The notes beneath the pieces are model-generated. The model was not told the origin of the DNA. It ran no database searches and saw only the letters and a list, made by a program, of their open reading frames with translations. A DNA stretch of 64,000 nucleotides, taken from Phragmitibacter flavus (GTDB lineage Bacteria > Verrucomicrobiota > Verrucomicrobiia > Verrucomicrobiales > Verrucomicrobiaceae). The position numbers and the translations under genes were made by a program. Location of the stretch: the NCBI RefSeq assembly GCF_005780165.1, contig NZ_VAUV01000004.1, forward strand, positions 248,001 through 312,000. Direction: 5' to 3'. This document shows, piece by piece, positions 1,686 through 64,000 of the stretch. The stretch's first letter is position 1; the number at the start of each line of letters is the position of its first letter.

Positions 1686-1768
1686 ACTGGCGGCGATCAT
1701 TGGCCTCGATTAAAGGATGCGAGTAGCGACGCCGAACATCAAAGTGATGGCGCACTACACTAGCGGGA

Positions 1769-1859
1769 GCCAACGTTGATCGCGGGGTTATCGTTGACAT
1801 TACGCGGAAGCATAGAGAACAGAGGGGCTAGTAGGTGTTGCCTTGCACGGGTTGTTCGG
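1769..1859 (-). other. Degenerate attC-like site, last of the first cassette array
   Basis: Read on the minus strand it starts TCCGAACAACCCG and ends GATCAACGTTGGCTC, so both outer boxes (GAAC.. and ..CGTTGG) are present. The inner stem is weak compared with the other sites. It overlaps the 3' end of the DUF6714 frame, as other sites here overlap their genes. It marks the left edge of the recognisable array. Confidence 0.45.
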
Positions 1860-2315
1860 AGTCTTCGATTTCGGTGTCTCCTTCGGGTTCAGTCCAGCAT
1901 CTCCAGACCGCCTCTAGTTCTTCGTCGCCACGGTCAGCATAGCGAGTCCGTATCAGGTCGAGGAAGCTGACGATAGCTCGATGCTGCTCCTGGGTGTAGC
2001 GTCGAGGAACATCCCACCCCCCACCACTGAGGAGAAGCTCTATCACAGCGTCGGTGTAAGCCGACTTGGGTTGCCGGATGCCAAGCCTCATCCACCCTGG
2101 GAGAAAATAATGTCGAGCCTCGGGCGTAAAGAAGGTCATGTCCCACGAGGGAATCGCATCCTGTCTGTTGACAACTCATCTGGATCTCTCTCCGCGAAGT
2201 CATCCCGAATCTCAAGGCATTCTCCACACGTGCAATTCGTAATGGATTCCTTCGCTGGTCTAGGGACGTTTGCGAAGGCTGCGTTGATCAAGGTGATGAC
2301 TTGTTCTTCATCCAT
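1828..2315 (-). pseudogene. Cassette gene: DUF6714-like protein, frameshifted
   Basis: Two overlapping minus-strand frames make up one protein. The first (start near 2315, MDEEQVITLINAAF, stop near 2136) ends in ECLEIRDDFAERDP and a short out-of-frame tail. The second (from 2139) begins MTFFTPEARHYFLPGWM. DUF6714 proteins, which are frequent in integron cassettes, carry these two parts in one chain. Reading the second frame back gives AIPSWDMTFFTPEA, so the shift lies at about 2160-2190. The start lies a few bases after the upstream attC, as expected for a cassette. The overlap is ATGA, so translational coupling of two halves is possible, but a frameshift mutation or sequencing error is simpler. 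Confidence 0.65.
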
Positions 2316-2321
2316 TTTCTT

Positions 2322-2375
2322 CCGAACGTCAAGGTATGGCGCGGCGCTAGCCCTCGCCACCACTGCCTTGTTCGT
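2322..2375 (-). other. attC-like site (short)
   Basis: On the minus strand it runs from CGAACAAGGCAG to CTTGACGTTCGG, about 54 bp. The outer boxes CGAAC and GTTCG are exactly complementary and match the neighbouring sites. The interior stem is shorter and less regular than in the other sites. It overlaps the end of the GNAT gene and lies just before the DUF6714 start. Confidence 0.6.
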
Positions 2376-2883
2376 CCCTGTTGGAGATTGAGTAGACTGT
2401 TGTGATGATATCTCGATTTCTCGGATTCCGATATTCTTTTTCTAGGGTCATCCCTGCTTTTTCGGCTGTCCTCCTCGATTGATGGTGATCCTTAGCCATG
2501 TAGCTGTAGAGTTTCTCGAGTTTTAGTTTCTCAAATCCATATTGGATCATCGCACGCGCTGCCTCTGGCGCAAAACCCCGGCCCCAACATTCTTTTCGGA
2601 TTCTGAATCCGACTTCTAATTCTTCTTCGCCGTCGATTATCTGGAGCGTGATTCCACAGTCTCCCACATAGCTGCCAGTCTCTTTCTCGATCACCGAAAA
2701 CAGACCATATCCTGAGTCTTTGAATGTTCGGATGTTCTTGGAAACTATCTTCGCAACCTCATCTCTCGTGTAAGGCTTTGCGTAAAAGGACATTGTCTCA
2801 GAGTCGCCCACGATGCTGAATTCGTCGTCGATATCCTCCCAAGAGAAAGGGCGCAGAATTAGTCTCTCGGTTTCGATTTTCAT
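2347..2883 (-). CDS. Cassette gene: GNAT N-acetyltransferase (RimJ/RimL type)
   Basis: The 178-residue protein starts MKIETERLILRPFSWEDIDD, the usual opening of Acetyltransf_3 / RimJ-RimL proteins, which transfer acetyl from acetyl-CoA to amino groups. The acetyl-CoA loop region is seen as ECWGRGFAPEAARAMI, followed by the typical ARRTAEK-like segment SRRTAEKAGM near residue 150. I chose 2883 rather than the upstream start at 2907 because the family begins here and the upstream part lies inside the attC site. The stop codon lies inside the following attC, as in several cassettes of this array. The substrate cannot be inferred. Confidence 0.88.
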   Translation of the reverse strand: MKIETERLILRPFSWEDIDDEFSIVGDSETMSFYAKPYTRDEVAKIVSKNIRTFKDSGYGLFSVIEKETGSYVGDCGITLQIIDGEEELEVGFRIRKECWGRGFAPEAARAMIQYGFEKLKLEKLYSYMAKDHHQSRRTAEKAGMTLEKEYRNPRNRDIITTVYSISNRDEQGSGGEG

Positions 2884-2890
2884 TCTTTTG

Positions 2891-3014
2891 ACGAACGTAG
2901 AGCACACACACCACTAGTAGCGGCGGCGCGTGTCACTCACGAGGTTGGGGTTGTAGTTACGGAAAATCATCTCAACAGAACGGCTACTAGTGGTCGCTTG
3001 GCGCGGCTTGTTCT
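2891..3014 (-). other. attC site
   Basis: On the minus strand it begins GAACAAGCCGCGCC and ends CTCTACGTTCGT. The inner arms pair over ACCACTAGTAGC and GCTACTAGTGGT. The site is long, about 124 bp. The central loop contains, on the plus strand, GGTTGGGGTTGTAG at 2943-2956. That motif recurs in the sites at 6141-6266 and 61619-61742. Confidence 0.85.
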
Positions 3015-3547
3015 CTCCTCTTTTTCAGGGGGAAGCGCTTCAAATCCGCAACTTGACCTCCGTCATAGGAAGAAAGGGTAAGCTCGTCAATTGTGCCGCT
3101 GATCTCATGCCCTTTGCGGTTCCATTCGGTAGCTAGCTCGTAAAGCTCTTCACGATCCTTGCTCGTGGCAACTCCGATGTGGGGCACATAAGGAATGTCC
3201 AATCTCAGCTTGGGACGCATGAAATCGCCATAAAGCCGATCGTGTAAAAGGCTTATTCCCGAAAATCCTTCATCAGGCACAAGGAAAATGTAGTAGTCAT
3301 CGCATCCGTCATCGTCATACACCAAAGCGTAACGGCAGGTGAAATCCACGGCTGCACTGTCTTCGGCGACGGCTTGAATGTGACGCTCCAAGTCGTTTTG
3401 AGAGATTCCTTCCGACGAGCCCGGAAAGATCATCGTCCAATGTGCATCAACTACGTCCACATATTTCTTGTCGTGTTCACGCCGGAAGCTGCTGATCAGT
3501 TTGGTGTCGGCTTCAGAAAGCCGGGGATATGCGAGGCAGAGTAGCAT
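2987..3547 (-). CDS. Cassette gene: 2H phosphoesterase / 2'-5' RNA ligase-like protein
   Basis: The 186-residue protein has an HWT motif at residues 36-38 (DAHWTMIFPG) and PHIGVA at 122-127. These are positioned like the two H-x-(T/S) motifs of the 2H phosphoesterase superfamily, which acts on 2'-5' bonds or cyclic phosphates in RNA and nucleotides. The second motif has Gly where Thr or Ser is usual, so activity is uncertain. The ATG follows the upstream attC by about 14 bases. The final residues (AAPSDH) and the stop lie inside the downstream attC. Confidence 0.65.
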   Translation of the reverse strand: MLLCLAYPRLSEADTKLISSFRREHDKKYVDVVDAHWTMIFPGSSEGISQNDLERHIQAVAEDSAAVDFTCRYALVYDDDGCDDYYIFLVPDEGFSGISLLHDRLYGDFMRPKLRLDIPYVPHIGVATSKDREELYELATEWNRKGHEISGTIDELTLSSYDGGQVADLKRFPLKKRREQAAPSDH

Positions 3548-3560
3548 CTTGGAATTTCTT

Positions 3561-3646
3561 CCGAACGTCTAGCTCATCCACGGCGGGAAGGGAAGCCCGA
3601 ATTCAAACTGGAGCGTTGCCCGCCGTTGAATCGAGCGTCTTGTTCT
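3561..3646 (-). other. attC site
   Basis: On the minus strand it starts GAACAAGACGCTCG and ends GAGCTAGACGTTCGG. The arms pair between CAACGGCGGG and CCCGCCGTG, and one arm has an extra A (CAACGG against CACGG). This is the unpaired base that orients attC recognition. The central loop carries GAATTCAAACTGGAGCG (plus strand, 3599-3615), shared with the sites at 4281-4371 and 6624-6711. Confidence 0.88.
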
Positions 3647-4274
3647 CTGTCTTGTGAGATGTATCAAGGATGACTTCGCCATCCGGAATTGCTCGATATG
3701 GAAGATCATTCTCACGGTAGTAATCCACGACAGTCTCCATGCTTTCTGATTCAAAGTGGTCACATCGGTAGTGAGGCACAATATAGTAATCAATGATACC
3801 AAGTCCTTCCCATATTGTGGGGTGCTCATATCCGTTGGATTGAGATTCCGGTTCATCAGCCAGATGAATGCCTCTCAGTGAAGGGGAAAGAACACAAATA
3901 CCAGCGCTGTAGCCGCCGTAGAGGAAGTCCTCGTCGTCAACCTTACCATGGAGCAATCGGTCGAGTCCGCTGAGATGCATCGCCTTACGTAGCAAGAAGG
4001 TGTTCCCCCCGACCACCCACAACATACCAGCTGCATCGAGCTTCTCAGATAGGATGTCTTGGGAAGTGAAATAGTCCCGGAGATCCAAGGTCTCTGCAGG
4101 AATTCCGAGGTCAGCCAGCAGGCCAATCTCTCGCTCCATTTTGAGCCTGAGATGCTCGGAATTATTCGAGGAATCAAGCGCGTTAGAAACCAACAGAGCC
4201 GTCTTCCCTCGGGCGAGCTCCGCGAGCTTGTGGCCTTGATCGCCGATAAGAAAAGATGAGAGGTAGAGATGCAT
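3603..4274 (-). CDS. Cassette gene: peptidase E-like protein (family S51)
   Basis: The 223-residue protein resembles dipeptidase E, which cleaves Asp-Xaa dipeptides with a Ser-His-Glu-type site. The nucleophile elbow GGYSAGICVL places Ser at residue 123. Upstream is MLWVVGGNTFLLRK, the family's GG(N/D)-T segment, and downstream VPHYRCDH supplies the likely histidine. The length fits the family. The ATG lies just after the upstream attC. The last 14 codons and the stop are part of the downstream attC, so the C-terminal tail is cassette-derived. Confidence 0.85.
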   Translation of the reverse strand: MHLYLSSFLIGDQGHKLAELARGKTALLVSNALDSSNNSEHLRLKMEREIGLLADLGIPAETLDLRDYFTSQDILSEKLDAAGMLWVVGGNTFLLRKAMHLSGLDRLLHGKVDDEDFLYGGYSAGICVLSPSLRGIHLADEPESQSNGYEHPTIWEGLGIIDYYIVPHYRCDHFESESMETVVDYYRENDLPYRAIPDGEVILDTSHKTENKTLDSTAGNAPV

Positions 4275-4280
4275 TTTTCA

Positions 4281-4371
4281 GAGAACGATAGAGTGGTGGC
4301 ACCGGCGGTGGGAAGCTCGAATTCAAATTGGGACCTTATCGCCGGTTGCCACGCACGTCTCGCCTTGTTGG
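4281..4371 (-). other. attC site
   Basis: On the minus strand it starts CCAACAAGGCGAG and ends CTCTATCGTTCTC. The arms are GTGGCAACCGGCG and CGCCGGTGCCAC, with one extra A in the first arm. The central loop holds GAATTCAAATTGG (plus strand, 4319-4331), close to the loop of two other sites in the array. Confidence 0.85.
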
Positions 4372-4390
4372 GTTTCGAGGGGTGGCATCA

Positions 4391-4774
4391 TTATCCGAAA
4401 AACCTACGACACTGTCTGGAAATATCGTCCAAGGCTCCGGCTTCAGTAAAAACTGGCACTTGAACGTCCCAGCCTTCAAATCCGCCTGTATCTCGAACAC
4501 GAACTCTAATCGTCACTTGCCCTGTTCGTGAAGAGAAAACCTCCAAGCGGAGGTCACCTTCAATGGACTCCCAACATCGCTCATCAGTCCATCCAGTCCA
4601 ATCCTTAGCGCAAGACTCGAAAAGATCTGCAACGCCCGAAGAGTCCGTGTAGGCCCAAATCCCCTTGGTGACTTGAGGTCCGTCGCCCTCAACGGTCACG
4701 CGAAAATAATCGCCATCAATGTCGTGGAATCGCAGATGCCTTCTGCCGACGCTGGATTTGATGACTGCTTCCAA
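4391..4774 (-). CDS. Cassette gene: DUF6228 family protein
   Basis: The 127-residue protein matches the DUF6228 pattern as I know it. It has an early FHDIDGDYFRVTVEG strand region, then LFESCAKDWTGWTDERCW, a strand with G-x-V-x-I-x-V (TGQVTIRVRVR), and an end with EAGALDDISRQCRRFFG. The function is unknown. A small soluble immunity- or regulator-like protein is typical of such cassettes, but this is not shown here. The start is TTG at 4774; no in-frame ATG lies between it and the attC at 4789. The stop comes 20 bases before the downstream attC. Confidence 0.7.
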   Translation of the reverse strand: MEAVIKSSVGRRHLRFHDIDGDYFRVTVEGDGPQVTKGIWAYTDSSGVADLFESCAKDWTGWTDERCWESIEGDLRLEVFSSRTGQVTIRVRVRDTGGFEGWDVQVPVFTEAGALDDISRQCRRFFG

Positions 4775-4788
4775 GGGTTCTTTTATTG

Positions 4789-4914
4789 GCGAACGTTAAA
4801 TGTGGTGCCACGGCGCGGGAGCCGCGCTCCTACGAAGGGAGGGAAGCATGAAGCGTCCCCACGACTCCGTGACGAAGCGGTTAGCGCCGTTGCTCACCCA
4901 CGTCTTGTTAGCCT
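4789..4914 (-). other. attC site
   Basis: On the minus strand it starts GGCTAACAAGACGTGG and ends CACATTTAACGTTCGCC. The L box GGCTAAC fits the RYYYAAC consensus exactly. The arms GAGCAACGGCGC and GCGCCGTGGC pair with an extra A. The centre contains a second hairpin, GGAGC-CGC-GCTCC (plus strand). The upstream cassette gene stops inside the GGCTAAC box. Confidence 0.87.
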
Positions 4915-5450
4915 CTTTCATTATCTGCCGGAGGGGGTGGGCCCATCTTGATGATTGCCTCAAATATCGATTGAACCTTGCCGTGGAGGAAACGCCGTCT
5001 CTTGAACTCGTTGAAATCGACTTCCACCCAAGAACTCTTCGGCGGATTGCGAGCGATGGCCTTAAAGAGATCCGCTGGACCATCAAAGCCTGGACCGGAT
5101 CTATCCTTATCGAGCTTGGGCGGTTCCTTCGTCTCGTAGTGCTTGCACACAATCGTCCTCTCAAACGGAAGATGAAACTCCTGCTTCGACTTTGGGGGGA
5201 CGACGGGACAGCTATCGGGGGACATGATGAACGAGTAGGAATACTTCGGGATGCCATGGTGAATCCGAACCTCATGAATATGGAGGGGAACGTCTTTCGT
5301 CTTGTTGATCAGCGTCAAGATGACGGTCGGCGGCAACTGTCCTACATGTGCTTGGATGATGAATGGAGTGCGAACCTGCATAAAACCCCAAACCGCCTTC
5401 AAGGGTGAAGACAATGAAGACAACCACGAAATTGAAGGTGTGGGCAGCAT
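4908..5450 (-). CDS. Cassette gene: hypothetical protein
   Basis: I do not recognise this 180-residue protein. It is basic, with a strand-rich middle (HVGQLPPTVILTLINKTK) and a charged C-terminus ending ADNERG inside the attC. The ATG at 5450 has little room for a leader. An internal ATG at 5381 (MQVRTPFIIQAHV) preceded by GGTTTGGGG is a fair alternative start. Just upstream, another frame (5514 to about 5385) reads as a membrane helix, FNFVVVFIVFTLEGGLGF. If the gene has a single frameshift near 5385, the protein would be membrane-anchored with an outside domain. This cannot be decided from one sequence. Confidence 0.55.
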   Translation of the reverse strand: MLPTPSISWLSSLSSPLKAVWGFMQVRTPFIIQAHVGQLPPTVILTLINKTKDVPLHIHEVRIHHGIPKYSYSFIMSPDSCPVVPPKSKQEFHLPFERTIVCKHYETKEPPKLDKDRSGPGFDGPADLFKAIARNPPKSSWVEVDFNEFKRRRFLHGKVQSIFEAIIKMGPPPPADNERG

Positions 5451-5465
5451 TGCGGGATTTTTTCT

Positions 5466-5558
5466 GGCTAACGTCTCGGATCAGGCGACGGAGAGCGCCA
5501 GACGTTGCTGACACGACAGATAGCCTTCAAGCCGTTGCCTGCATCCGTTTTGTTCGCC
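5466..5558 (-). other. attC site
   Basis: On the minus strand it starts GGCGAACAAAACGGATG and ends GATCCGAGACGTTAGCC. The terminal GTTAGCC fits the GTTRRRY consensus exactly. The arms GGATGCAGGCAACG and CGTCGCCTGATCC pair with one extra base. The central loop is unrelated to the other sites. Confidence 0.87.
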
Positions 5559-5580
5559 TTTGTGTGGTGGTGATGAGTGG

Positions 5581-6126
5581 TCATGGCTTCAGTCCAAGCA
5601 GCTTGAGTGATGCCGCGATGTGTTCCGAATCAGGGTGGCCCGCAAGACCTGCCCGCAGAAGGTCTCGTCCTGCATCCTGTAATGGAGAATCGGCGGTCAG
5701 TAGTCGGTTCGGGTCACGATACACAGCAAACCAGGGATCACCCTGCTCAGTCACGAAGCGAAAAAGGTCGTCAATACACCGTTCAAACATGTGCCCGCTC
5801 TTGGCGTTGAAGCTGTGATGATAGTGGCCCTCTCTCGTGCGGGTGGGATCACTCATCGGGCCGTTCAGTGCGACCGCCGCATGAGTGTCATTGAGCACTC
5901 GAATGGCGAAGTGAACTCTGAAGGCGACCCTGAAGTTGATTGGGCCTCCGTAACTGCTGCCGCGACGATGGAGATGAATGACATCGACCGTGTGCTCATG
6001 CCTGCGAGTCCACAACATCTTCTTCGACCTCGCATATCCCAACGTGGCTACTCGGGCCGAAAACTCGCGACAGGCGGCCTCCTGTCTGTCTCGGACAATC
6101 TTGGTGGTATCCGGTCCGGCGAGCAT
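5581..6126 (-). CDS. Cassette gene: DUF4304-like protein
   Basis: The 181-residue protein has an N-terminal helix region, then KKMLWTRRHEHTVDVIHLHR and a strand-rich core (FRVAFRVHFAIRVLND). It ends in a helical part (MFERCIDDLFRFVTEQ). The order resembles DUF4304 proteins, which are common as cassette products and of unknown function, but the match is from memory and moderate. The ATG is 15 bases after the attC at 6141. The TGA lies 22 bases before the attC ending at 5558. Confidence 0.5.
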   Translation of the reverse strand: MLAGPDTTKIVRDRQEAACREFSARVATLGYARSKKMLWTRRHEHTVDVIHLHRRGSSYGGPINFRVAFRVHFAIRVLNDTHAAVALNGPMSDPTRTREGHYHHSFNAKSGHMFERCIDDLFRFVTEQGDPWFAVYRDPNRLLTADSPLQDAGRDLLRAGLAGHPDSEHIAASLKLLGLKP

Positions 6127-6140
6127 GGCGCGTGGTGTTG

Positions 6141-6266
6141 GGCGAACGTCGAGGTGTGGAACCGGCTACCGGGAGCGCCACTCCGCAACAGGGTTGAGGG
6201 TTGTAGTAAAGAGGGTCATTTCGACTCGGGGCGGGTAGCCGGTTGTCCACCACCGTCTTGTTCGCC
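6141..6266 (-). other. attC site
   Basis: On the minus strand it starts GGCGAACAAGACGGTGG and ends CACACCTCGACGTTCGCC. The arms pair over AACCGGCTACC and GGTAGCCGGTT. It is long, 126 bp. The loop carries GGGTTGAGGGTTGTAG (plus strand, 6191-6206), the same motif class as in 2891-3014 and 61619-61742. Confidence 0.88.
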
Positions 6267-6608
6267 TTTGGGTTGCTCCTCGTAGAGCCGCCGAAGCTTC
6301 AAGAACAGATCAAGTGCCTCCCGATCAGATGAGGTGTTCTCCTCAATGAAGGTTGTCCATCCATATCCGCCATATGGAAACTTATGGCCGTAATACTCTG
6401 TGACGAACTCGTGGAATCGTGGTGGGATAATCTGATCCAGTTGGGCTCGTGCCTCCTCGCCGAGCATCTCGCTGCGAGCACACTGATAGCCCGAGAGGAA
6501 TGCGACAAAACTGTGAAAATGGTTGTCGCTATCGCCCCAATACATCGCAGGGCGTTTGAAGATGCTCTCCAAAACGTTGCCATCTTGCTTGTGATCGGTG
6601 TCGGTCAT
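6216..6608 (-). CDS. Cassette gene: hypothetical protein with RPAMYWG segment
   Basis: The 130-residue protein is not recognised as a named family. It begins MTDTDHKQDGNVLESIFKRP and has AMYWGDSDNHFHSFVAFLSGYQ, which resembles small cassette proteins of the form RP.MY.G....F..F..GY. A helical C-terminal half follows. The last 20 residues (from KGEQDGGG) and the stop lie within the attC stem, so the tail sequence is dictated by the recombination site. The ATG is 16 bases after the upstream attC. Confidence 0.65.
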   Translation of the reverse strand: MTDTDHKQDGNVLESIFKRPAMYWGDSDNHFHSFVAFLSGYQCARSEMLGEEARAQLDQIIPPRFHEFVTEYYGHKFPYGGYGWTTFIEENTSSDREALDLFLKLRRLYEEQPKGEQDGGGQPATRPESK

Positions 6609-6623
6609 GGAGCGGATTTTTGA

Positions 6624-6711
6624 GGCGAACGTCTAGGCCATACGCGGCGGGGTGGAAAGCCTGAATTCAAACTGGAGCGCTTCCCGCCGTCGTATGAGCC
6701 GGCTTGTTCTG
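6624..6711 (-). other. attC site
   Basis: On the minus strand it starts GAACAAGCCGGCTC and ends GGCCTAGACGTTCGCC. The arms CATACGACGGCGGG and CCCGCCGCGTATG pair with an extra A. The loop GAATTCAAACTGGAGCG (plus strand, 6663-6679) is identical to that of the site at 3561-3646. Confidence 0.88.
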
Positions 6712-7092
6712 TCATTGTTTGGTGAGACGTCGTTGAAGGTCGGTAATCTCGGCGATCCAGGCATCCAGCAGCTCAGTCTCCTCCCAACTGCTTCGCAACC
6801 ATGAGCTGTTCATCACGCGGTTAAGAGCTCGTGCTGCATCACGCCGTAGAAATGGAGAAATTGAGATCCAAGGCAATCCCTTCAGTTCATCATGCGGAAC
6901 TTCAGGTGGGATGCCACAGAGATACGAGACCACCTCTCCAGCTGCAATCGCGCCTTCAGGATCGGAGTCTGCACTATCGCACGGATCGGAAAGCGTCGCG
7001 GTAATGAATCTCTCGGAAGGTGCATCACGAAAGCCATCGAGCCAGTCCATGGCTTGATCATTCTCGAAGGATCTTGTGCCCCAGGCTCCCAT
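6712..7092 (-). CDS. Cassette gene: DUF4259 family protein, first of the array
   Basis: The 126-residue protein starts MGAWGTRSFENDQAMDWLDG, the characteristic DUF4259 opening (MG.WG...F.ND.A.D.L). The length fits this family of unknown function. I take the start at 7092 because the 17 upstream residues in frame do not belong to the family and fall in the palindrome region. Being the rightmost gene of a minus-strand array, it would be the cassette next to an integration site. The stop abuts the attC at 6711. Confidence 0.82.
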   Translation of the reverse strand: MGAWGTRSFENDQAMDWLDGFRDAPSERFITATLSDPCDSADSDPEGAIAAGEVVSYLCGIPPEVPHDELKGLPWISISPFLRRDAARALNRVMNSSWLRSSWEETELLDAWIAEITDLQRRLTKQ

Positions 7093-7335: not shown

Positions 7336-7695
7336 TCACCGGCGCGCTCCCAACATCTCCCAAAAGCGCCGCCCCGGTCCTCCGAAAAACTCTCCGACAT
7401 CCCGCCGGGGCTGCCCCGGCATCATTTCCGGCTCCCAAAAATACCGCCGGGGCTCCCCCGGCACCTCATCGCTCTCCGCCACCGCATGCCGGGGCTCCCC
7501 CGGCATCCCTCCACACTCCGCCAACACCCGCCGGGGCCACCCCGGCACTCCTTCGCGCTCTCCGCTGAACTGCCGGGGCCGCCCCGCCAACTCCCCCGAC
7601 TCCCAAAAACCCTGCCGGGGCTGCCCCGGCACCCTTTCCCGCTCCCCAAAATACTGCCGGAACCGTCCCGCCAATTCATTTGCATTCTTTTCCAC
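7336..7695 (-). CDS. Protein made of 14-residue repeats (PG-x-PR repeats)
   Basis: The 119-residue frame (GTG start at 7695) consists of about seven units of 14 residues with the pattern x-(V/M/L)-(P/A)-G-x-P-R-x-x-x-x-E-x-x. Examples are RVPGQPRQGFWESG and EVPGEPRRYFWEPE. It is rich in Arg, Glu and Pro and has no Cys pair or membrane helix. The frame follows the 42-bp DNA period exactly. The Pro-Gly...Pro-Arg residues are encoded in the palindromic core, so it is unclear whether the DNA or the protein is selected. The opposite strand is also open, which lowers confidence that this is a real protein. Function unknown. Confidence 0.4.
   Translation of the reverse strand: MEKNANELAGRFRQYFGERERVPGQPRQGFWESGELAGRPRQFSGEREGVPGWPRRVLAECGGMPGEPRHAVAESDEVPGEPRRYFWEPEMMPGQPRRDVGEFFGGPGRRFWEMLGARR
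7404..7672. repeat. Seven-copy 42-bp tandem array of GC-rich palindromes
   Basis: Cores of the form GCCGGGGCTGCCCCGGC start at 7404, 7446, 7488, 7530, 7572, 7614 and 7656, always exactly 42 bp apart. The first four and the sixth cores are near-perfect inverted repeats. The fifth and seventh have lost pairing (GCCGGGGCCGCCCCGCC, GCCGGAACCGTCCCGCC). The 25 bases between cores are only partly conserved (TCCC and CTCTCC elements). The constant period without length change suggests recent tandem duplication or frame constraint. No cas genes or unique spacers are present. Confidence 0.9.
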
Positions 7696-8900: not shown

Positions 8901-10385
8901 TCACTGCTTCGGCTGGACCTTTTTCTGCCGATTCGCCCCCGCCTCCCGCCCATCGGGTTTCGACTCATCATACCCGGGATTCTTCGCGGGCATTAGCCCA
9001 CCCACTTCTTTTATCCACTCATCAAGCTTCGCTTTCAACTCCTTCACCCGATCCGGTTGCGCCCCCGCCAGGTCATTCGTCTCACTCAAATCATCCTTCA
9101 AATTAAACAGCTCCATCCGACCATCCTCCAACCACTCGATCAATTTCCAGTCCCCCAATCGCACCGCCGAAGCGGGCGCACTTCCTTGATTCCCATAATG
9201 CGGATAATGCCAGAAGAGCGGACGGGAGGTTAATGATTCGCCTTTGAAGAGCGGCACCAGACTGACGCCGTCCAGCACCGGGTTCGTATCCAATGTGGCG
9301 CCAGAAGCCTCCATCAAAGTCGCGAAAAAATCGGGGCTCGACACCGGCGTGTCATTCACCTCACCCGCTTTGATCACGCCCGGCCAGCGAATCAACAACG
9401 GCTCACGAATGCCGCCCTCATACATCCAACCCTTGCCACCACGAAGCGGCACATTGGACGTTGGCGAACCTTCGCTGGTCGAAAGACCTCCATTGTCCGA
9501 GGTGAAAATCACCAGCGTGTTGTCGCTCAAACCGAGCTCATCCAATTTGTCCAAGACCTTGCCCACCGCCTGATCCATGGCCTCCACCATGCCGGCATAA
9601 ATCGCATGTTCTTGAACCAACCGCACCTCCCTCGGGCCTTCTTTGCCCCACTCGGCCTGCAACCCCATCTGTTCTTTTTTCTTCTTATACTTCTCCACCA
9701 AATCCTCCCTCGCGATCAAGGGAGTGTGCACGGAGTAGAACGAAAAATAAGCAAAGAACGGTTGTCCCTTCTTCTTGCTGGCTTCGATGAACTGGTTGGT
9801 TTCCTCCGCCAGCCGATCCGGCAGATGCTCGCCGTCGGGACCGTCCTCAAGCCGGGGATTGCCATACGGCGAGAAATATTTCTTTCCGCCATATGGGCCG
9901 CCCTTGTCGATCCCCCCCTTGTTTACATCAAACCCCTGATCCTCCGGCCAGAAACCCTCTGGTCCAAGGTGCCACTTGCCCGCAAACATCGTCGCATAAC
10001 CTTTCGACTTCAGCATGTCCGCAAGTGTCACTTCATTCAGGGCAAGCCGGTCGCGGTAAGGAGCCGGAAGCAGTTTGGTGTTGCGTTTCCACTGATCTGG
10101 AGCCGGTGCACCAATGTAGTCAGTGATGCCTGTTCGTTGGGGATATTTTCCCGTTATGATGCTTGCCCGCGTCGGTGAACAAACCGGACAGGCCGCATAG
10201 GCATCGGTGAATTTCATGCCCTGTTTTGCCAGCCTGTCCAGATTCGGAGTTTCATAAAAAGTGCTGCCATACACCGCAAGATCACGCTGACCCAGATCAT
10301 CCACCAAAAAGAACACGATGTTCGGCGGAGCCGCAGCCATCAGCGATGGTGCGAAAAGCAAAAGGGAAAAAAGGAAGCGGATCAT
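8901..10385 (-). CDS. Exported sulfatase (arylsulfatase type)
   Basis: The 494-residue protein starts with a signal peptide (MIRFLFSLLLFAPSLMAAA), then PNIVFFLVDDLG with the metal-binding Asp pair at 29-30. The signature C-S-P-T-R lies near residue 70, the cysteine being converted to formylglycine in active enzymes. Other family marks are GKWHLG, FTSDNGG and the Arg/Glu-rich GGIREPLLIRWPG. It should hydrolyse sulfate esters, probably of polysaccharides, in the periplasm or outside. The C-terminus is unusually basic and Gln/Lys-rich. The ATG at 10385 is preferred to the TTG at 10394 because it opens the signal peptide. The sulfatase-maturating enzyme is not in this window. Confidence 0.93.
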   Translation of the reverse strand: MIRFLFSLLLFAPSLMAAAPPNIVFFLVDDLGQRDLAVYGSTFYETPNLDRLAKQGMKFTDAYAACPVCSPTRASIITGKYPQRTGITDYIGAPAPDQWKRNTKLLPAPYRDRLALNEVTLADMLKSKGYATMFAGKWHLGPEGFWPEDQGFDVNKGGIDKGGPYGGKKYFSPYGNPRLEDGPDGEHLPDRLAEETNQFIEASKKKGQPFFAYFSFYSVHTPLIAREDLVEKYKKKKEQMGLQAEWGKEGPREVRLVQEHAIYAGMVEAMDQAVGKVLDKLDELGLSDNTLVIFTSDNGGLSTSEGSPTSNVPLRGGKGWMYEGGIREPLLIRWPGVIKAGEVNDTPVSSPDFFATLMEASGATLDTNPVLDGVSLVPLFKGESLTSRPLFWHYPHYGNQGSAPASAVRLGDWKLIEWLEDGRMELFNLKDDLSETNDLAGAQPDRVKELKAKLDEWIKEVGGLMPAKNPGYDESKPDGREAGANRQKKVQPKQ

Positions 10386-58001: not shown

Positions 58002-58049
58002 GCGGACACTCTTGTCCGCTTCAGTGGGGAGCACACGCATCCTGCGTGT
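58002..58049. terminator. Two adjacent hairpins at the convergent rex-operon/cyclase junction
   Basis: GCGGACA-CTCT-TGTCCGC (58002-58019) is followed by ACACGCA-TCC-TGCGTGT (58033-58049). They lie between two convergent genes, and the second is inside the last codons of the cyclase gene. They can terminate both strands and look like an interspersed repeat unit that has been captured as coding sequence. Confidence 0.6.
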
Positions 58050-59856
58050 CGTTCTCGGCATCTTGCAGAGAACCCGGAGCCACCGCCCGCAGCGCCCCCA
58101 TCGTCCACACGACCGGATACAACCGCTCGTGATACCACAAACGCGCAAAATACAGCCCAATCGGTGCCGCCGGAAAAACCGTCCCCCCCTCGGTGTTCTG
58201 CACCAACCACCGCGCCCCGCGCTCCACCGCCTCACCCGTCTCACCAACCGTCACTAACGCCATCACCGCATTCGCCGTCTCTTCAATCGAAGTCACCACG
58301 CCCTTCGCGCCGCCCCATCCTCCATCCGCCCCCTGAGCCGCCAGAAGAAACTCCGCCCCGCGACGCAATACCGCCATGCTCTCCGCGCTCAGCTCCACCC
58401 GACCCGCACCCGCCCCCTGCAGCACCATCGCCGTCCCATGCACCGGATTCTCCTCCTCCGGCGCGTGCTCATTGCCAAACCACAACGGCACCCACGACCC
58501 ATCCGCCCGCTGCTCCCTCTGCAAATACTCCCACGCCCGATCCGTCGCCCTTCCCACCCGCTCTCTCAACTTCTCAGACAACATCCCGCCCCACAAACCC
58601 CACGCCCACAACGCATGCGAGGTCAGCTCCGGCGTGCTACGATCAAACGGCAAGGCCCCCCAACCCCGGCAAAAGGTCGGCATTCCACCATCCCGATTCT
58701 GCAGATCCAGCAACCATCCCACCGCCGCCTCCACCTTCGGCAACATCCCGCGCCTCACCTCATCCGACCCCGCCAGCTCCCAAAGCGCCACCAACGCCCC
58801 CGGCGTATCATCCGCATCCGGCACCCCCCCCGGCAAATCCGTCCAAGCCCATCCTCCCGGGGCCGCATTCGTAAACGGATGCACCACCTCATACTGCTGC
58901 CCCAACAACCAATCTTTCACCCTCTCATCCCCCTCTCCCATCGACTTCACCGCCAGCGTCGTTCCCCACGTCGCAAGATTGGTATCAATTGGCCAACTTC
59001 CATCCGCCCTCTGCGACCCGACCAAAAACCGCACCGCCTCCGGCACACACGCATGCTTCTTCTGACCCGCTGAAGCCAGCGCCATCGTCACAAAACTCGT
59101 CAACGGCGTCGCCTCCAAATAACCCCCCGTTTCCGGCTGCAATTCCTTCAACATCGGCCCCACCCGCCGCCACAAAACCGACCGCAACCATCGCAACGGA
59201 TTCCACCACGCAAACGGCGCGTTCACATGCCGCGCATAGCCGATCGCAATCAACGCTGGCAACGCATAACTCACCACCGGCAACCCCACTGCCCCAAACC
59301 AGGTCCTTGGCAGTGCCGCCAGCTCAAACGGCAACGGCAACACCATCCTCCAGCCATCTCTTCCCAGCGTCCCACCAATCGCACACAACATCAAAATCGG
59401 CACCGAAAACGTCTTGTCCTTCCCATACCGAGCCACCACCGCCCTCTGGATCTCCCCCGGCTCCAACGACCCCACCCGCCCTTCAATCCAAGCACTCCCC
59501 CGCGCAATCGTCGGCCCCAACGGCCTCACCGGCTGACTCACCAACGTCTCCCCACACAGCCCCAACCGGTTCTTCATCACCAACTGCAACGCCGACCAAC
59601 ACAACAACGTCGTCGACAAATTGCTCCCGCTCAACGTCGTGTCCCCCCATCCCCCATCCTCGTTCTGAAACTTCATCAACCAGTCCACTCCACTTCGAAT
59701 CACCGCATCGTGCGATTCCTCATCGACCAATGAAAGCGCCACCACCGCCGTTGCCGTCGCCAATGCACTGCTTGCCAGTTCCCCCTCCCAAAACCCCGCC
59801 TCATTGCGCAGCGATAGAAGATGTTCACGGGTATTAAAAATCGCCTGATCCAGCAT
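58021..59856 (-). CDS. Squalene-hopene cyclase-like terpene cyclase
   Basis: The 611-residue protein has the class II cyclase acid DADD (residues 347-350, in GGVPDADDTPGAL). It has several QW repeats (QNEDGGWGD, QRADGSWPI, QNRDGGMPT, QRADGSWVP, QGADGGWGG) that pack the alpha-barrel. It should protonate squalene or a related polyprene and cyclise it to a hopanoid-type product. The polyprenyl synthase gene lies in the same window. The C-terminal tail (QDAENDTQDACAPH) is unlike the family and is built from the hairpin element at 58002-58049. The protein is about 30 residues shorter than typical cyclases and lacks an N-terminal extension. Confidence 0.88.
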   Translation of the reverse strand: MLDQAIFNTREHLLSLRNEAGFWEGELASSALATATAVVALSLVDEESHDAVIRSGVDWLMKFQNEDGGWGDTTLSGSNLSTTLLCWSALQLVMKNRLGLCGETLVSQPVRPLGPTIARGSAWIEGRVGSLEPGEIQRAVVARYGKDKTFSVPILMLCAIGGTLGRDGWRMVLPLPFELAALPRTWFGAVGLPVVSYALPALIAIGYARHVNAPFAWWNPLRWLRSVLWRRVGPMLKELQPETGGYLEATPLTSFVTMALASAGQKKHACVPEAVRFLVGSQRADGSWPIDTNLATWGTTLAVKSMGEGDERVKDWLLGQQYEVVHPFTNAAPGGWAWTDLPGGVPDADDTPGALVALWELAGSDEVRRGMLPKVEAAVGWLLDLQNRDGGMPTFCRGWGALPFDRSTPELTSHALWAWGLWGGMLSEKLRERVGRATDRAWEYLQREQRADGSWVPLWFGNEHAPEEENPVHGTAMVLQGAGAGRVELSAESMAVLRRGAEFLLAAQGADGGWGGAKGVVTSIEETANAVMALVTVGETGEAVERGARWLVQNTEGGTVFPAAPIGLYFARLWYHERLYPVVWTMGALRAVAPGSLQDAENDTQDACAPH

Positions 59857-59886
59857 CCCAAGACCCTAGCCCAACTCAAAAGGACC

Positions 59887-59903
59887 GCGAAGTTTTACTT
59901 CGC
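59887..59903. repeat. Short palindrome GCGAAGT-TTT-ACTTCGC
   Basis: This is the second strong copy of the palindrome at 1156-1172, again preceded by GGACC. It lies 31 bases upstream of the cyclase start rather than after a gene, which argues against a pure terminator role. Confidence 0.65.
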
Positions 59904-59996
59904 CTGATCCCCACAACCTCAGCCCCCAATTTCACCTCTCACCCTTGCGGGAGTGAGCATTGAGACTGGATGACGGGTTAAAGCTACGTAAAACAT

Positions 59997-60044
59997 GGCC
60001 GACAGAGCAACCCCAGCGGTTGTGCAACCGCACTTTGTTCGGCC
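59997..60044 (-). other. attC-like site, end of the second cassette cluster
   Basis: On the minus strand it starts GGCCGAACAAAGTGC and ends CTCTGTCGGCC. It holds the inner palindrome CGGTTG-CA-CAACCG. It lies 22 bases after the stop of the ATP-grasp cassette gene. It is short (48 bp), and the R box GTCGGCC has lost one expected T. Confidence 0.5.
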
Positions 60045-60065
60045 TTGGTGGTGTATCCCTGCAGT

Positions 60066-60848
60066 TCATTCGGGTAAAGTAAGCATACGAATCAAGCTGT
60101 GGCTACTCCAGTGCTTCCGGTCGGAAACCTGCCCGTCTCCAAGCTCGATGACTCGCCAGACGCCATCACAACGAAGCGCCACATCAACCGTAAAAAATGG
60201 ACTCGCTACCCTGTTGGCTGCTTCAGTGACAATCTGCGGCACCTCACCTGCGTCCGAGTGAACCAGTCCCTGCCAAACAAAGTAGCGCCGCTCAGTGGAA
60301 GTATCATATTCCTCAAAGCGTCTGGCACACAAACCACCCTCAATCTGCCCACGATACTTCGACATTTTGGCAATGACGGCGGGAATTACCGAAAGGTCTC
60401 GAACCACGGAGCCGCCATCGGTAGAAAGAGACTTCACATAGTCCTTCAAAAAGCAACTGTCCCAACCGTGGGCTGCCAGTGCTGCAGCGACGTCGTCCGT
60501 CTCCGAAAAAATCATCGTCTCTGCGGTGAACTCCGTCAAAAGCGGATACCAACAAGGCAAGTGATGGCAAAGGGTGTATGCGGCAACGTCCGTAACGAGA
60601 GTGCCGCCAGCAGCGACAATGGCCTCGAACAGCCGAGTGTATTCTGTGGGAGTCAGCATCCAGCCTCGATACAAAACTGTCTCTCCGCTCTGAATCGCAG
60701 GCCGTGGCCGAAACGTCCCACCTTGGAAGTCCTCGAAACTGAAAATGGAAACGGGAAACCCTTCCGCCTGTGCCGCAGCAAACTCGTCTGCATAGACCTC
60801 ATCGGCTACCTTCGGGCTAAACGTGTCTGCTGGATAGATGAGTCTCAT
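60066..60848 (-). CDS. Cassette gene: ATP-grasp domain protein
   Basis: The 260-residue protein has ATP-grasp features. The N-terminal part holds MRLIYPADTFSPKVADEVYA. The central strand includes DSCFLKDYVKSLSTDGGSVV with the lysine and glycine loop, and the metal-binding end is FTVDVALRCDGVWRVIELGD, the acidic E-x-(G/N)-D motif. It resembles ATP-grasp proteins of DUF4343 type found near antibiotic, immunity or modification genes. It presumably makes an amide or peptide bond; the substrate is unknown. The ATG at 60848 (MRLIYPAD) is chosen since the frame upstream runs through a decayed attC. Confidence 0.75.
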   Translation of the reverse strand: MRLIYPADTFSPKVADEVYADEFAAAQAEGFPVSIFSFEDFQGGTFRPRPAIQSGETVLYRGWMLTPTEYTRLFEAIVAAGGTLVTDVAAYTLCHHLPCWYPLLTEFTAETMIFSETDDVAAALAAHGWDSCFLKDYVKSLSTDGGSVVRDLSVIPAVIAKMSKYRGQIEGGLCARRFEEYDTSTERRYFVWQGLVHSDAGEVPQIVTEAANRVASPFFTVDVALRCDGVWRVIELGDGQVSDRKHWSSHSLIRMLTLPE

Positions 60849-60864
60849 TGGGATACGGTTGGTT

Positions 60865-60897
60865 TGCCGAATGTCGATTCCTCCCACGCCTGACCGG
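60865..60897 (-). other. Half attC site (decayed)
   Basis: On the minus strand GGTCAGGCGTGGGAGGAAT runs into CGACATTCGGC. It matches the right half of the intact site at 61619-61742 (GGTCAGGCGTAGGAGGACT then CGACGTTAGCC). The left half with GAACAAG is missing, so the site has probably lost function by deletion. Confidence 0.6.
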
Positions 60898-60903
60898 ATT
60901 TGA

Positions 60904-61074
60904 TCACCGGAATGACACAAAGAAGAGAGCGCCAAAGGCAATCGCCGCAGCAATCAGACCGATACCGGATGCAAAAAGGAAGGCATGCATACAACCGAGG
61001 ATTCCAGTAATCAGCAATCCAATGATGGCAAGACCGGGAATGGCTGATAAATTAGGCGGTTTCTGTGGAGTCAT
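60904..61074 (-). CDS. Cassette gene: small two-helix membrane protein
   Basis: The 56-residue protein has two hydrophobic helices (IPGLAIIGLLITGILGCMHA and IGLIAAAIAFGALFFVSF) joined by a short turn, with a Pro-rich N-terminus. It has no recognised family. It lies between a GTTCGGC box (minus strand, about 61096-61102) that follows the next cassette and the half attC at 60865. The position and strand mark it as a cassette. Such small membrane proteins are frequent in cassette pools. Confidence 0.6.
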   Translation of the reverse strand: MTPQKPPNLSAIPGLAIIGLLITGILGCMHAFLFASGIGLIAAAIAFGALFFVSFR

Positions 61075-61144
61075 TGTCGGTGTTGGTTAATTAAAGCCGA
61101 ACGTCAAGCGTGAGGAACTGAAAAAGGCTTTAGCGACTGAAGGT

Positions 61145-61618
61145 TTACTCGACTCTATCGTTGACCTGCATCTGAATTCTGGAATAGCGTAACGACAGTA
61201 TAAGACCAATCAGAGCAGTTAGCGCAACTATGACCGGAAGCTGAGTAACTGCGAAAACGTAAAAAGGCTCTGTCTGTGGTCCAATTCTGGATGAGTCGAA
61301 AAACGGAAGGCTTACTCCAACGATAATTACACATATCCAACTGACCTTTTGGAAGAGGCATGCTTTACATGTCGCGAATAGTGTCCCACATAGCCCCAAA
61401 ACAGCCCAGACTCCCGACGCATAGAGAAGTAACGCAAGAATCAGCCGTAGAAATCTTGCATTCCTATCAGCCATGTAATCAGGAGTTCCACTAGCTCCGA
61501 GTTCTCGTAGAGCGTCGCAAAATTCCAGAATAGTTGCTGGGAGCCAAGGTAGCTTCAACAGCGCGATTGGGACCGCGAGAAGAAGCGTGAGAAGAGCGAA
61601 AAGTCGTATAGTTATCAT
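61145..61618 (-). CDS. Cassette gene: four-helix membrane protein
   Basis: The 157-residue protein has four hydrophobic segments (RLFALLTLLLAVPIALLKLP, FLRLILALLLYASGVWAVLG, WICVIIVGVSLPF, LPVIVALTALIGLILSL). It has no recognised family. The first base of the attC GGCTAAC box at 61619 comes directly before the ATG. Downstream the expected attC is reduced to a CTTGACGTTCGGC end near 61096-61110. The function is unknown; membrane topology suggests a small transporter or immunity-like protein, which is speculation. Confidence 0.65.
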   Translation of the reverse strand: MITIRLFALLTLLLAVPIALLKLPWLPATILEFCDALRELGASGTPDYMADRNARFLRLILALLLYASGVWAVLGLCGTLFATCKACLFQKVSWICVIIVGVSLPFFDSSRIGPQTEPFYVFAVTQLPVIVALTALIGLILSLRYSRIQMQVNDRVE

Positions 61619-61742
61619 GGCTAACGTCGAGTCCTCCTACGCCTGACCGGGGGCGAGGCTTCGATTGCGGGTTGAGGTTGTAGCGATCATGACGGCTGGA
61701 ACTGAAGGCGGGTCAGGCGTTAGGAGTGACGTCTTGCTCGGC
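61619..61742 (-). other. attC site (best in the second cluster)
   Basis: On the minus strand it starts GCCGAGCAAGACGTCACTCC and ends GAGGACTCGACGTTAGCC. The arms CTCCTAACGCCTGACC and GGTCAGGCGTAGGAG are complementary except for one extra A in the first arm, the classic unpaired base of attC. The GTTAGCC end fits GTTRRRY. The loop contains GGGTTGAGGTTGTAG (plus strand, 61669-61683), shared with two sites of the array at 1.8-7.1 kb. Confidence 0.88.
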
Positions 61743-61985
61743 TTTGTGATCTTTGGCAACCGGGAGTTCTTCAAACGAAAGCTCAAGTCCCCAAAAACCT
61801 CCAAGTCGGTGATCTAGTGGCCTGATTCGAAGGATGGACTCATCTAGCCGAATTGCCAATGGACCGGCCAGCACAGCGATACCCCTAGGTTCTGCCTCAC
61901 ACATAAACCTACCCTGCCGAGATCCCGCTTCTCCGGTGACATAACCTCTTCCAGACAAGGTGCCATCGTCTGTGAATAGTTCCAT
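61713..61985 (-). CDS. Cassette gene: small soluble hypothetical protein
   Basis: The 90-residue protein (ATG at 61985; an alternative at 61994) has a strand-rich body (MELFTDDGTLSGRGYVTGEA, GIAVLAGPLAIRLDESILRI). It ends in a hydrophilic tail (AKDHKAEQDVTPNA) that lies inside the attC. It has no recognised family. The stop lies in the stem of the downstream attC, a pattern shared with several genes of the first array. Confidence 0.6.
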   Translation of the reverse strand: MELFTDDGTLSGRGYVTGEAGSRQGRFMCEAEPRGIAVLAGPLAIRLDESILRIRPLDHRLGGFWGLELSFEELPVAKDHKAEQDVTPNA

Positions 61986-62006
61986 TGGATGCATTGTCTT
62001 CTTTCT

Positions 62007-62067
62007 GCCGAACAGTTATTCTTCGACAAGTCGTAAAGCATCACGACTCGTCGGTTTACGCTTATCA
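62007..62067 (-). other. attC-like site at the upstream end of the second cluster
   Basis: On the minus strand it reads GATAAGCGTAAACCGACGAG through to AATAACTGTTCGGC. The arms CGACGAGTCGT and ACGACTTGTCG pair around an 8-base loop. The R box GTTCGGC matches the array consensus; the L box is degenerate. It is either the attC of a lost cassette or the remains of the integration site. No gene was found between it and 62282. Confidence 0.5.
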
Positions 62068-62282: not shown

Positions 62283-62510
62283 TCAGCGAAACTCCCGACG
62301 CCCGCACTTCAAACAAGTCTGCAACCGATCACCCCCTTGAACCGCCACAATGATCCACACGATCAACCACAATCCCGTCATCAACGTCAGTCCAAAGTGC
62401 AGCCAATGTCGCACCGCCGGTTTTCCATGCAATGTCACATCCTCACAACCCTGACATAACCGCAGCCTCACCTGCAACGGCTTGTCAATGATCTCAAAAG
62501 GGAACCGCAT
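62283..62510 (-). CDS. Small membrane protein with two CxxC pairs
   Basis: The 75-residue protein has CQGC at about residue 19, a membrane helix (WLHFGLTLMTGLWLIVWIIV) and CLKC near the C-terminus (CLKCGRREFR). Two cysteine pairs flanking one helix could form a zinc or redox site at the cytoplasmic face if the chain loops back. It starts seven bases after the valS stop on the same strand and is probably in its operon. No family name is known to me. Confidence 0.65.
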   Translation of the reverse strand: MRFPFEIIDKPLQVRLRLCQGCEDVTLHGKPAVRHWLHFGLTLMTGLWLIVWIIVAVQGGDRLQTCLKCGRREFR

Positions 62511-62516
62511 ATACCG

Positions 62517-64000
62517 TCAGCTCAACGCCTCCAGCATCCCCACCAGCTTCGCTTTCTTCTCCAGCCAGTCGGTCTCACGCTGACGATGCTCCTCCAGCAC
62601 CTTCGCCGGCACCTTCGCGGCAAAATTTTCATCCGCCAGCTTCGCCTGCACCTTCGCCAGTTCGCTCTCCACTTTGGCGAGCTCCTTCGTCAAACGTTCA
62701 CGCTCCGCCGACGCATCGATCAGCCCCTCCAGCGGCAAAAACAGCTCTCCCATCGTCGTGATCGCCACCGGCGTGCCTTTGCCTGGCTCGAACTTCGGAT
62801 CCACGTCCAGCGGCTCCGCGTTCAACAAAATCCGCAGCACCTCCACATCATGCGCCGCCAGATCCACCGACGGCTTCAGCACAAAACGCACCTTCTTGTT
62901 GATGTTGAAGCTGCTCTTCAAACCACGCCCAAGGTTCACCACCTCATACTTGTTCGCCGCAATCTGCTCGTCTTCCGGCAACAACCCCATGTGTGCCAGC
63001 TCATCCTCATCAAACGGCTTCGGCCACGGCGCAAACATGATGCTCCTGCCGCCCTGCTCTTCCGGCATGTCTTCGGCAAACCCCATCCCATGCCAAAGCT
63101 CTTCCGTGATGAACGGCATGAACGGATGAAACAACCGCAAAGTCTGCCCAAGCACATGATCGATCACCGACAACGTGTTCGCCTTGCGCTTCGCATCCGA
63201 TCCCTGCAACACCGCCTTGCTCGCCTCCACATACCAGTCGCAATACTCGCTCCAGAAGAACCGGTAAAGCGTCTGCGTCGCGTCGCTAAAACGATACTCC
63301 TCCAGCGCCAGCGTCACTTCGCGAATCGCCGCGTTCAAGCGCAACAAGATCCACTTGTCGTCGCTCGACAACAACGCGCTGTTGATCTCGCCCTCCATCT
63401 CCCCGCCCTGCATCTGACGGAAGCGCGCCGCGTTCCACAGCTTCGTGCAAAAATTCCGACCCAGCTCCACATTCTTCTCATCAAACAGAATGTCCTGCCC
63501 CAGCGGCGCACTGCGCATGATCCCAAACCGCAGCGCATCCGCCCCAAAGTTCGCGATCAAATCCAGCGGATCAGGCGAATTGCCCAGCGACTTCGACATC
63601 TTGCGACCCTGCTTGTCGCGGATGATCCCCGTGTAATACACGTTTTTGAAAGGCATCTCGCCCATGTATTCATACCCCGCCATGATCATCCGGGCCACCC
63701 AGAAAAAGATGATGTCCGGACCCGTCACCAAATCCGTCGTCGGATAAAACGCCTTCAAAGTAGGAGTTGCATCCTCCTTGGCGGATTCCATCTCCCAACC
63801 CATCGTCGCAAACGGCCACAACCAGGAACTGAACCACGTGTCCAGCACATCCGCATCCTGCACAAAACCATGATGCTCCAGATGGATCGCCTGATCCTCC
63901 TCGGTCGTCGCCACAAACAAGGTGAACGCCTGCTCCTCTTCCACCCCGCCCTTCGTTTCAAAACCAAAGCTTGGATGCGACACCTCCTCGCGATCACTCT
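62517..64000 (-). CDS. valS: Valyl-tRNA synthetase, C-terminal part (cut by window end)
   Basis: The frame is open to the window end, so only the last 494 or so residues are seen. They include DVLDTWFSSWLWPFATMG, the KMSKS motif (RKMSKSLGNSPDPLDLI) and the ValS-type anticodon-binding domain (NAARFRQMQGGEMEGEINSA, DKWILLRLNAAIREVTLALE). The C-terminal coiled coil (RERLTKELAKVESELAKVQA) is the tRNA-binding arm specific to ValS. It charges tRNA-Val. The editing and HIGH parts lie beyond the window. Confidence 0.97.
   Translation of the reverse strand, partial: SDREEVSHPSFGFETKGGVEEEQAFTLFVATTEEDQAIHLEHHGFVQDADVLDTWFSSWLWPFATMGWEMESAKEDATPTLKAFYPTTDLVTGPDIIFFWVARMIMAGYEYMGEMPFKNVYYTGIIRDKQGRKMSKSLGNSPDPLDLIANFGADALRFGIMRSAPLGQDILFDEKNVELGRNFCTKLWNAARFRQMQGGEMEGEINSALLSSDDKWILLRLNAAIREVTLALEEYRFSDATQTLYRFFWSEYCDWYVEASKAVLQGSDAKRKANTLSVIDHVLGQTLRLFHPFMPFITEELWHGMGFAEDMPEEQGGRSIMFAPWPKPFDEDELAHMGLLPEDEQIAANKYEVVNLGRGLKSSFNINKKVRFVLKPSVDLAAHDVEVLRILLNAEPLDVDPKFEPGKGTPVAITTMGELFLPLEGLIDASAERERLTKELAKVESELAKVQAKLADENFAAKVPAKVLEEHRQRETDWLEKKAKLVGMLEALS

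Follow-up and report, generated by a model that had tools for sequence, protein, structure and literature searches.

Four gene cassettes and damaged attC sites between valS and a cyclase gene: a probable CALIN in a Verrucomicrobiaceae genome

Introduction

How did four genes flanked by complete and broken recombination sites come to lie between valS and a squalene/hopene-cyclase gene, and can they still move? Integron integrases recombine the folded bottom strand of attC sites. Cassettes can be integrated at attI or, with less specificity, at attG sites of the chromosome (Loot et al. 2024, as referred to in PMC12901181 and PMC11023631). CALINs, groups of attC sites with no integrase, can arise from off-target insertion, from the loss of intI or from rearrangement, and integrons are on record for Verrucomicrobiota (PMC8618304). 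In Xanthomonas, CALINs are found at several loci, and there are lineages without intI that kept their cassettes (PMC12444791).

The window studied here, i.e., the whole analysed stretch of 64,000 nucleotides (G000:C4:248001-312000), belongs to a Verrucomicrobiaceae genome of 5.9 Mb, which is assembled into 44 contigs and 99.89% complete. A preliminary description of the window had proposed two cassette clusters on the same strand, the second of them decayed. This second cluster (cluster 2; minus strand, 59947-61994) comprises four ORFs of 93, 157, 56 and 260 aa that are interspersed with attC sites or their remnants, and it is bordered by valS on one side and the cyclase gene on the other. We investigate how the cluster was formed and what became of its sites.

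Results

Sites and genes within the valS-cyclase spacer

The features of the locus are as follows (window coordinates).

58021-59856, minus strand: squalene/hopene-cyclase-type gene; flank, ancestral neighbour of valS
59947-60043, minus strand: attC 5' arm and loop, 97 nt; only the 3' arm is missing, lost at the chromosome junction
60066-60848, minus strand: cassette ORF, 260 aa, R2K_3 ATP-grasp enzyme (PF14243)
60865-60898, minus strand: attC 3' arm alone (L' and R' boxes); 5' arm and loop lost
60904-61074, minus strand: cassette ORF, 56 aa, membrane-like (ORF and homologue search)
61095-61116, minus strand: R' end of an attC, CTTGACGTTCGGC (R'-side matrix match)
61145-61618, minus strand: cassette ORF, 157 aa, membrane-like; weak, sub-threshold DsbB similarity
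61618-61742, minus strand: intact attC with R'' GCCGAGC and R' GTTAGCC; stem of about 15 bp with an extrahelical A
61713-61994, minus strand: cassette ORF, 93 aa, no family (ORF and profile search)
62006-62055, minus strand: possible upstream cassette boundary, CTGTTCGGC, adjoining an 11-bp hairpin
62517-63983, minus strand: valS (valyl-tRNA synthetase), 3' part as listed; flank

The sites were scored with two covariance models. Model R1 was built from seven window sites and then run on other parts of the genome, while model R2 was built from the 49 sites found with R1, all of which are outside the window. Since R2 contains no window site, it serves as a held-out test of the two window clusters. 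Under R2, the attC at 61618-61742 reaches 90.6 bits (E 2e-21; 101.5 bits if the site is itself part of the model), which confirms the intact attC of the preliminary description. Its R''/L'' and L'/R' boxes fold into a single hairpin with extrahelical bases, and it is 82% identical to the attC at C1:55328-55452 of the same genome. The first cluster (1730-6712), said to lie on the same strand, is real as well and shows nine attC sites of 25.8-91.6 bits (R2).

The damaged sites of cluster 2 obtain 2-12 bits by covariance model, which is close to noise; they fail R2 because one arm is missing. At the level of alignments, they are 80-91% identical to other attC sites of their own genome. As a control, 40 shuffled regions were aligned with all 49 sites, which resulted in a maximum score of 28. 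The half attC of the preliminary description (60865-60898) is real, i.e., it shares 31/34 bases with the attC at C1:55328-55452, at the 3' end of that site (score 53). For the remnant next to the cyclase gene, 76/95 bases (59947-60041) agree with the attC at C1:71232-71359 (score 95) and 75/95 bases of 59947-60043 with that at C10:95246-95372. The attC end that had been placed near 61096 is found at 61095-61116 and ranks fourth among the R'-side matches over 128,000 window positions, where the three better matches are confirmed attC sites. A complementary-arm search against shuffles found no 5' arm upstream of it. Two more degenerate sites had been proposed. The one near 60000 is the remnant at 59947-60043 and is larger than claimed, while the one near 62010 did not hold up as an attC: 62006-62055 scores 5.7-9.7 bits with the covariance models, indistinguishable from chance, and might be an upstream cassette boundary given its distance to the 93-aa ORF. 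As neither 59947-60043, 60865-60898 nor 61095-61116 shows both arms of an attC, we class them as remnants and not as sites.

The four minus-strand genes had been described as unknown or of ATP-grasp type. This agrees with our searches, where the 93-, 157- and 56-aa proteins are assigned to no family and the 260-aa protein matches R2K_3 (PF14243; E 1.3e-19, 71.4 bits, gathering cut-off 26.3). The G+C content of the four cassettes is 0.47-0.54 vs. 0.58-0.62 for the flanking genes. No relatives of the 93-aa and 157-aa proteins were found in 68 family genomes. The 56-aa protein has relatives of 46-53% identity in contig C11 of its own genome and in three Verrucomicrobiaceae, with an attC beside none of them. 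Relatives of the R2K gene occur in three other family genomes (83, 75 and 60% identity); plasmid-borne relatives are below 60%. In the two cases whose contexts were read closely (G074, G015), the neighbouring genes are unrelated to the valS-cyclase locus. In no genome was an R2K gene found to adjoin an intact attC; the G074 gene has a weak attC (20.4 bits) about 1.4 kb upstream of it. The comparison with the G074 gene yields dN 0.094 and dS 0.66, i.e., a dN/dS of about 0.14, and selection has thus maintained the R2K protein on the lineages connecting both genomes. That is, the R2K ATP-grasp gene is under purifying selection.

Searches of the cluster 2 region against phage records and Rfam gave no match. 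Some further elements were observed in the surroundings of the clusters. Directly behind valS, there is a 75-aa membrane/cysteine-rich ORF (62283-62510), which is likewise not seen in the relatives with short spacers; in L046, a relative of 34% identity is encoded on the opposite strand, upstream of the cyclase gene. A palindromic 22-bp element, GGACCGCGAAGTTTYACTTCGC, is present at 1151-1172 and 59882-59903, each time in an intergenic spacer close to one of the two cassette clusters. As 0 occurrences are expected by chance, it is probably a REP-like repeat. Finally, palindromic TGCCGGGGCTGCCCCGGCA-like repeats form a run at window positions 7350-7690, immediately behind the first cluster.

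Comparison with the spacer of relatives

Between valS and the cyclase gene, we find 2661 bp in this genome vs. about 80-130 bp in five syntenic relatives (L017/L098, L021, L036/L114, L041/L117 and L112, where paired loci are assumed to be one genome from two sources). Longer spacers are seen in L126 (393 bp) and L045 (666 bp). The cassette genes of cluster 2 are absent from this spacer in all seven syntenic relatives, and we therefore consider them a lineage-specific insertion. In other words, the ORFs lie between recombination boundaries and are absent from the relatives' spacer, as gene cassettes would be; the finding that the preliminary description had named as refuting it, identical genes and borders in all related species, is not what we see. 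The junctions of the insertion are unreadable, as the spacer cannot be aligned across genera and the outermost site on each side is damaged.

The 666-bp spacer of L045 (MAG SSF29; 9336-10000) holds an insert whose ORF runs on the opposite strand and has GAACGTCAAGC close to its start. We considered it as an independent cassette but make no such claim, given a single GAACGTC end and no attC by model. The insert implies that the valS-cyclase spacer may be generally permissive, which we count against an integrase-driven insertion. A further array of the genome (G000:C10:92871-97288; L176 6872-11289) is inserted between a nudix gene and a gene of 571 aa. The respective gap measures 31, 32 and 144 bp in three relatives (G011, G018, G005) and 556 bp in a fourth.

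These neighbourhoods bear on the question of whether cluster 2 is a piece of a larger chromosomal integron, e.g., of the C1 array, that was relocated by genome rearrangement. Rearrangement is among the routes by which CALINs are described to arise (PMC8618304), and it would fit the observation that two attC sites of cluster 2 are close to one C1 site (82% and 91%), while a third resembles a different C1 site. Nevertheless, we regard relocation as unlikely: the cluster still has valS on one side and the cyclase gene on the other, and the flanks of the C10 array are likewise preserved, so that little beyond the cassettes was added.

attC sites without an integrase

Cluster 2 is not merely paired with cluster 1 but is one among at least 12 attC loci. 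Using R1, we obtained about 60 attC sites at 12 or more places on 10 contigs, while R2 reports 49 sites at E < 1e-6. Alignment adds about 10 near-complete sites that the model missed, such that the genome holds about 70 attC sites; these genome-wide counts rest on model searches. The other loci contain many intact sites, whereas cluster 2 has one intact site and three remnants. The same attC type is found in 46/67 family genomes, of which this genome has the highest number of strong sites (49).

No IntI above the curated TIGR02249 cut-off was found in this genome (24/68 family genomes have one), tblastn revealed no intI remnant in the stretches around the arrays examined, and none of these arrays has the neighbouring intI of a complete integron. 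Relatives with IntI carry the same attC type beside intI. None of the arrays examined extends off a contig end. Since the assembly consists of 44 contigs, the integrase might also be located in a gap.

The genome encodes eight other tyrosine recombinases. One adjoins an IS91-type transposase gene near the start of another attC array (L169 6838-8938; G000:C23:36837-38937). We considered this recombinase (C23:38020-38880) as a divergent IntI because the array begins about 2 kb off in the right orientation, and rejected it: the IntI-specific stretch is missing (profile positions 180-227 unmatched) and the IS91-type transposase gene adjoins. A second candidate, the recombinase at C4:242096, was dismissed as well: its position relative to cluster 1 is on the wrong side, and along its length it does not resemble IntI.

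The cassettes could in principle still be moved in trans by a plasmid integrase or by one of the genome's other tyrosine recombinases. A genome that leads the 67 family genomes in strong attC sites, shows no IntI and has eight other tyrosine recombinases would be in line with this, but the best candidate (C23) has no IntI-specific stretch and sits next to a transposase gene, and the decay of the cluster 2 sites speaks against current use. We thus hold ongoing movement in trans to be very unlikely.

Loss of single hairpin arms

We compared for each site whether its 3' arm has an upstream complement. In full attC sites it does, and the complement is matched by 0 or 1 of 200 shuffles. The remnants of cluster 2 and further one-armed remnants of the genome (around C1:64091-64139, C1:61692-61729, C8:232818-232854) show no such complement, i.e., what is found is matched by 38 to 192 of 200 shuffles. 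The remnants break within the hairpin loop or at its edge. Two cases in cluster 2 are resolved to the nucleotide, to which as many as three from other parts of the genome can be added. Since no part of an attC site is less conserved than the loop, we treat the pattern of breaks as a lead, and some break positions may be limits of the alignment.

These cases raise the tentative and rather doubtful idea that point mutation is not the sole way in which attC sites decay once the integrase is missing, and that the hairpin arms are also lost entire and singly, through breaks in the unpaired loop or at its edge. Here, the extruded hairpin itself might provoke the deletion, e.g., via cleavage by a hairpin nuclease or via replication slippage. 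If true, one-armed loss would lock cassettes in place fast and irreversibly.

Discussion

Cluster 2 is very probably a CALIN, i.e., four cassettes that IntI would have inserted at a chromosomal site other than attI, with an integrase that is no longer found in the genome and mobility mostly lost. We propose the following course of events. An integron integrase would have inserted the four cassettes in one orientation into the valS-cyclase spacer, using a non-attI, attG-like site, and intI would have been lost after the insertion. The attC hairpins would have been lost subsequently, such that at least two sites are without one of the arms that the integrase must bind. The cassettes would thereby have lost most of their mobility, while the intact attC could still serve an integrase provided in trans. 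The anatomy of the locus fits both the insertion at an attG-like site and the later loss of intI, which we infer. Fixation of the cassettes in the chromosome would likewise be an inference, drawn from one genome of the genus.

The reading of the locus as decayed cassettes hence stands with respect to the cassettes, their insertion and the loss of arms. The positional gradient of decay that had been part of it cannot be supported, given four sites in one order and no statistics.

Chance resemblance of the half sites, with the 93-aa ORF and the attC as the sole cassette and three ordinary chromosomal genes beside it, would agree with the 2-12 bits of the damaged sites but is largely refuted and the least probable explanation, given identities of 76/95 and 31/34 (scores 95 and 53 vs. 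a shuffle maximum of 28) and ORFs that are missing from the relatives' spacer.

CALINs have been described in other bacteria, and cluster 2 is a clear relic of this known kind rather than a new system. As in known CALINs, several attC sites and cassette ORFs share one orientation and intI is not nearby. Cluster 2 differs in that 3/4 of its supported sites are damaged; with one intact attC, it might be missed by the default threshold of two attC sites. The dispersed CALINs of Xanthomonas (PMC12444791) likewise occupy many chromosomal places off the home locus, with cassettes that outlast the integrase, but they belong to a different phylum, and the position of cluster 2 was not found to be conserved between species. 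Insertion at attG sites, to the extent that Loot et al. (2024) is represented in the articles citing it, equally yields cassettes in chromosomal spacers away from attI; there, it is experimental, while for cluster 2 it is deduced from a locus with unreadable junctions. Complete integrons of Verrucomicrobiaceae relatives (e.g., G058, G064, G031) share this attC type, as detected with the same model, but retain intI beside the array.

In cluster 2, an insertion separates two genes that were ancestral neighbours, and its exchange sites have been caught at various stages of breakage. If one-armed loss were general, it would provide a simple mechanism and a molecular marker of cassette domestication, and attC finders that need both arms would undercount former cassettes. 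For a little-studied phylum, the locus offers a clean example of integron cassettes turning into ordinary chromosomal genes.
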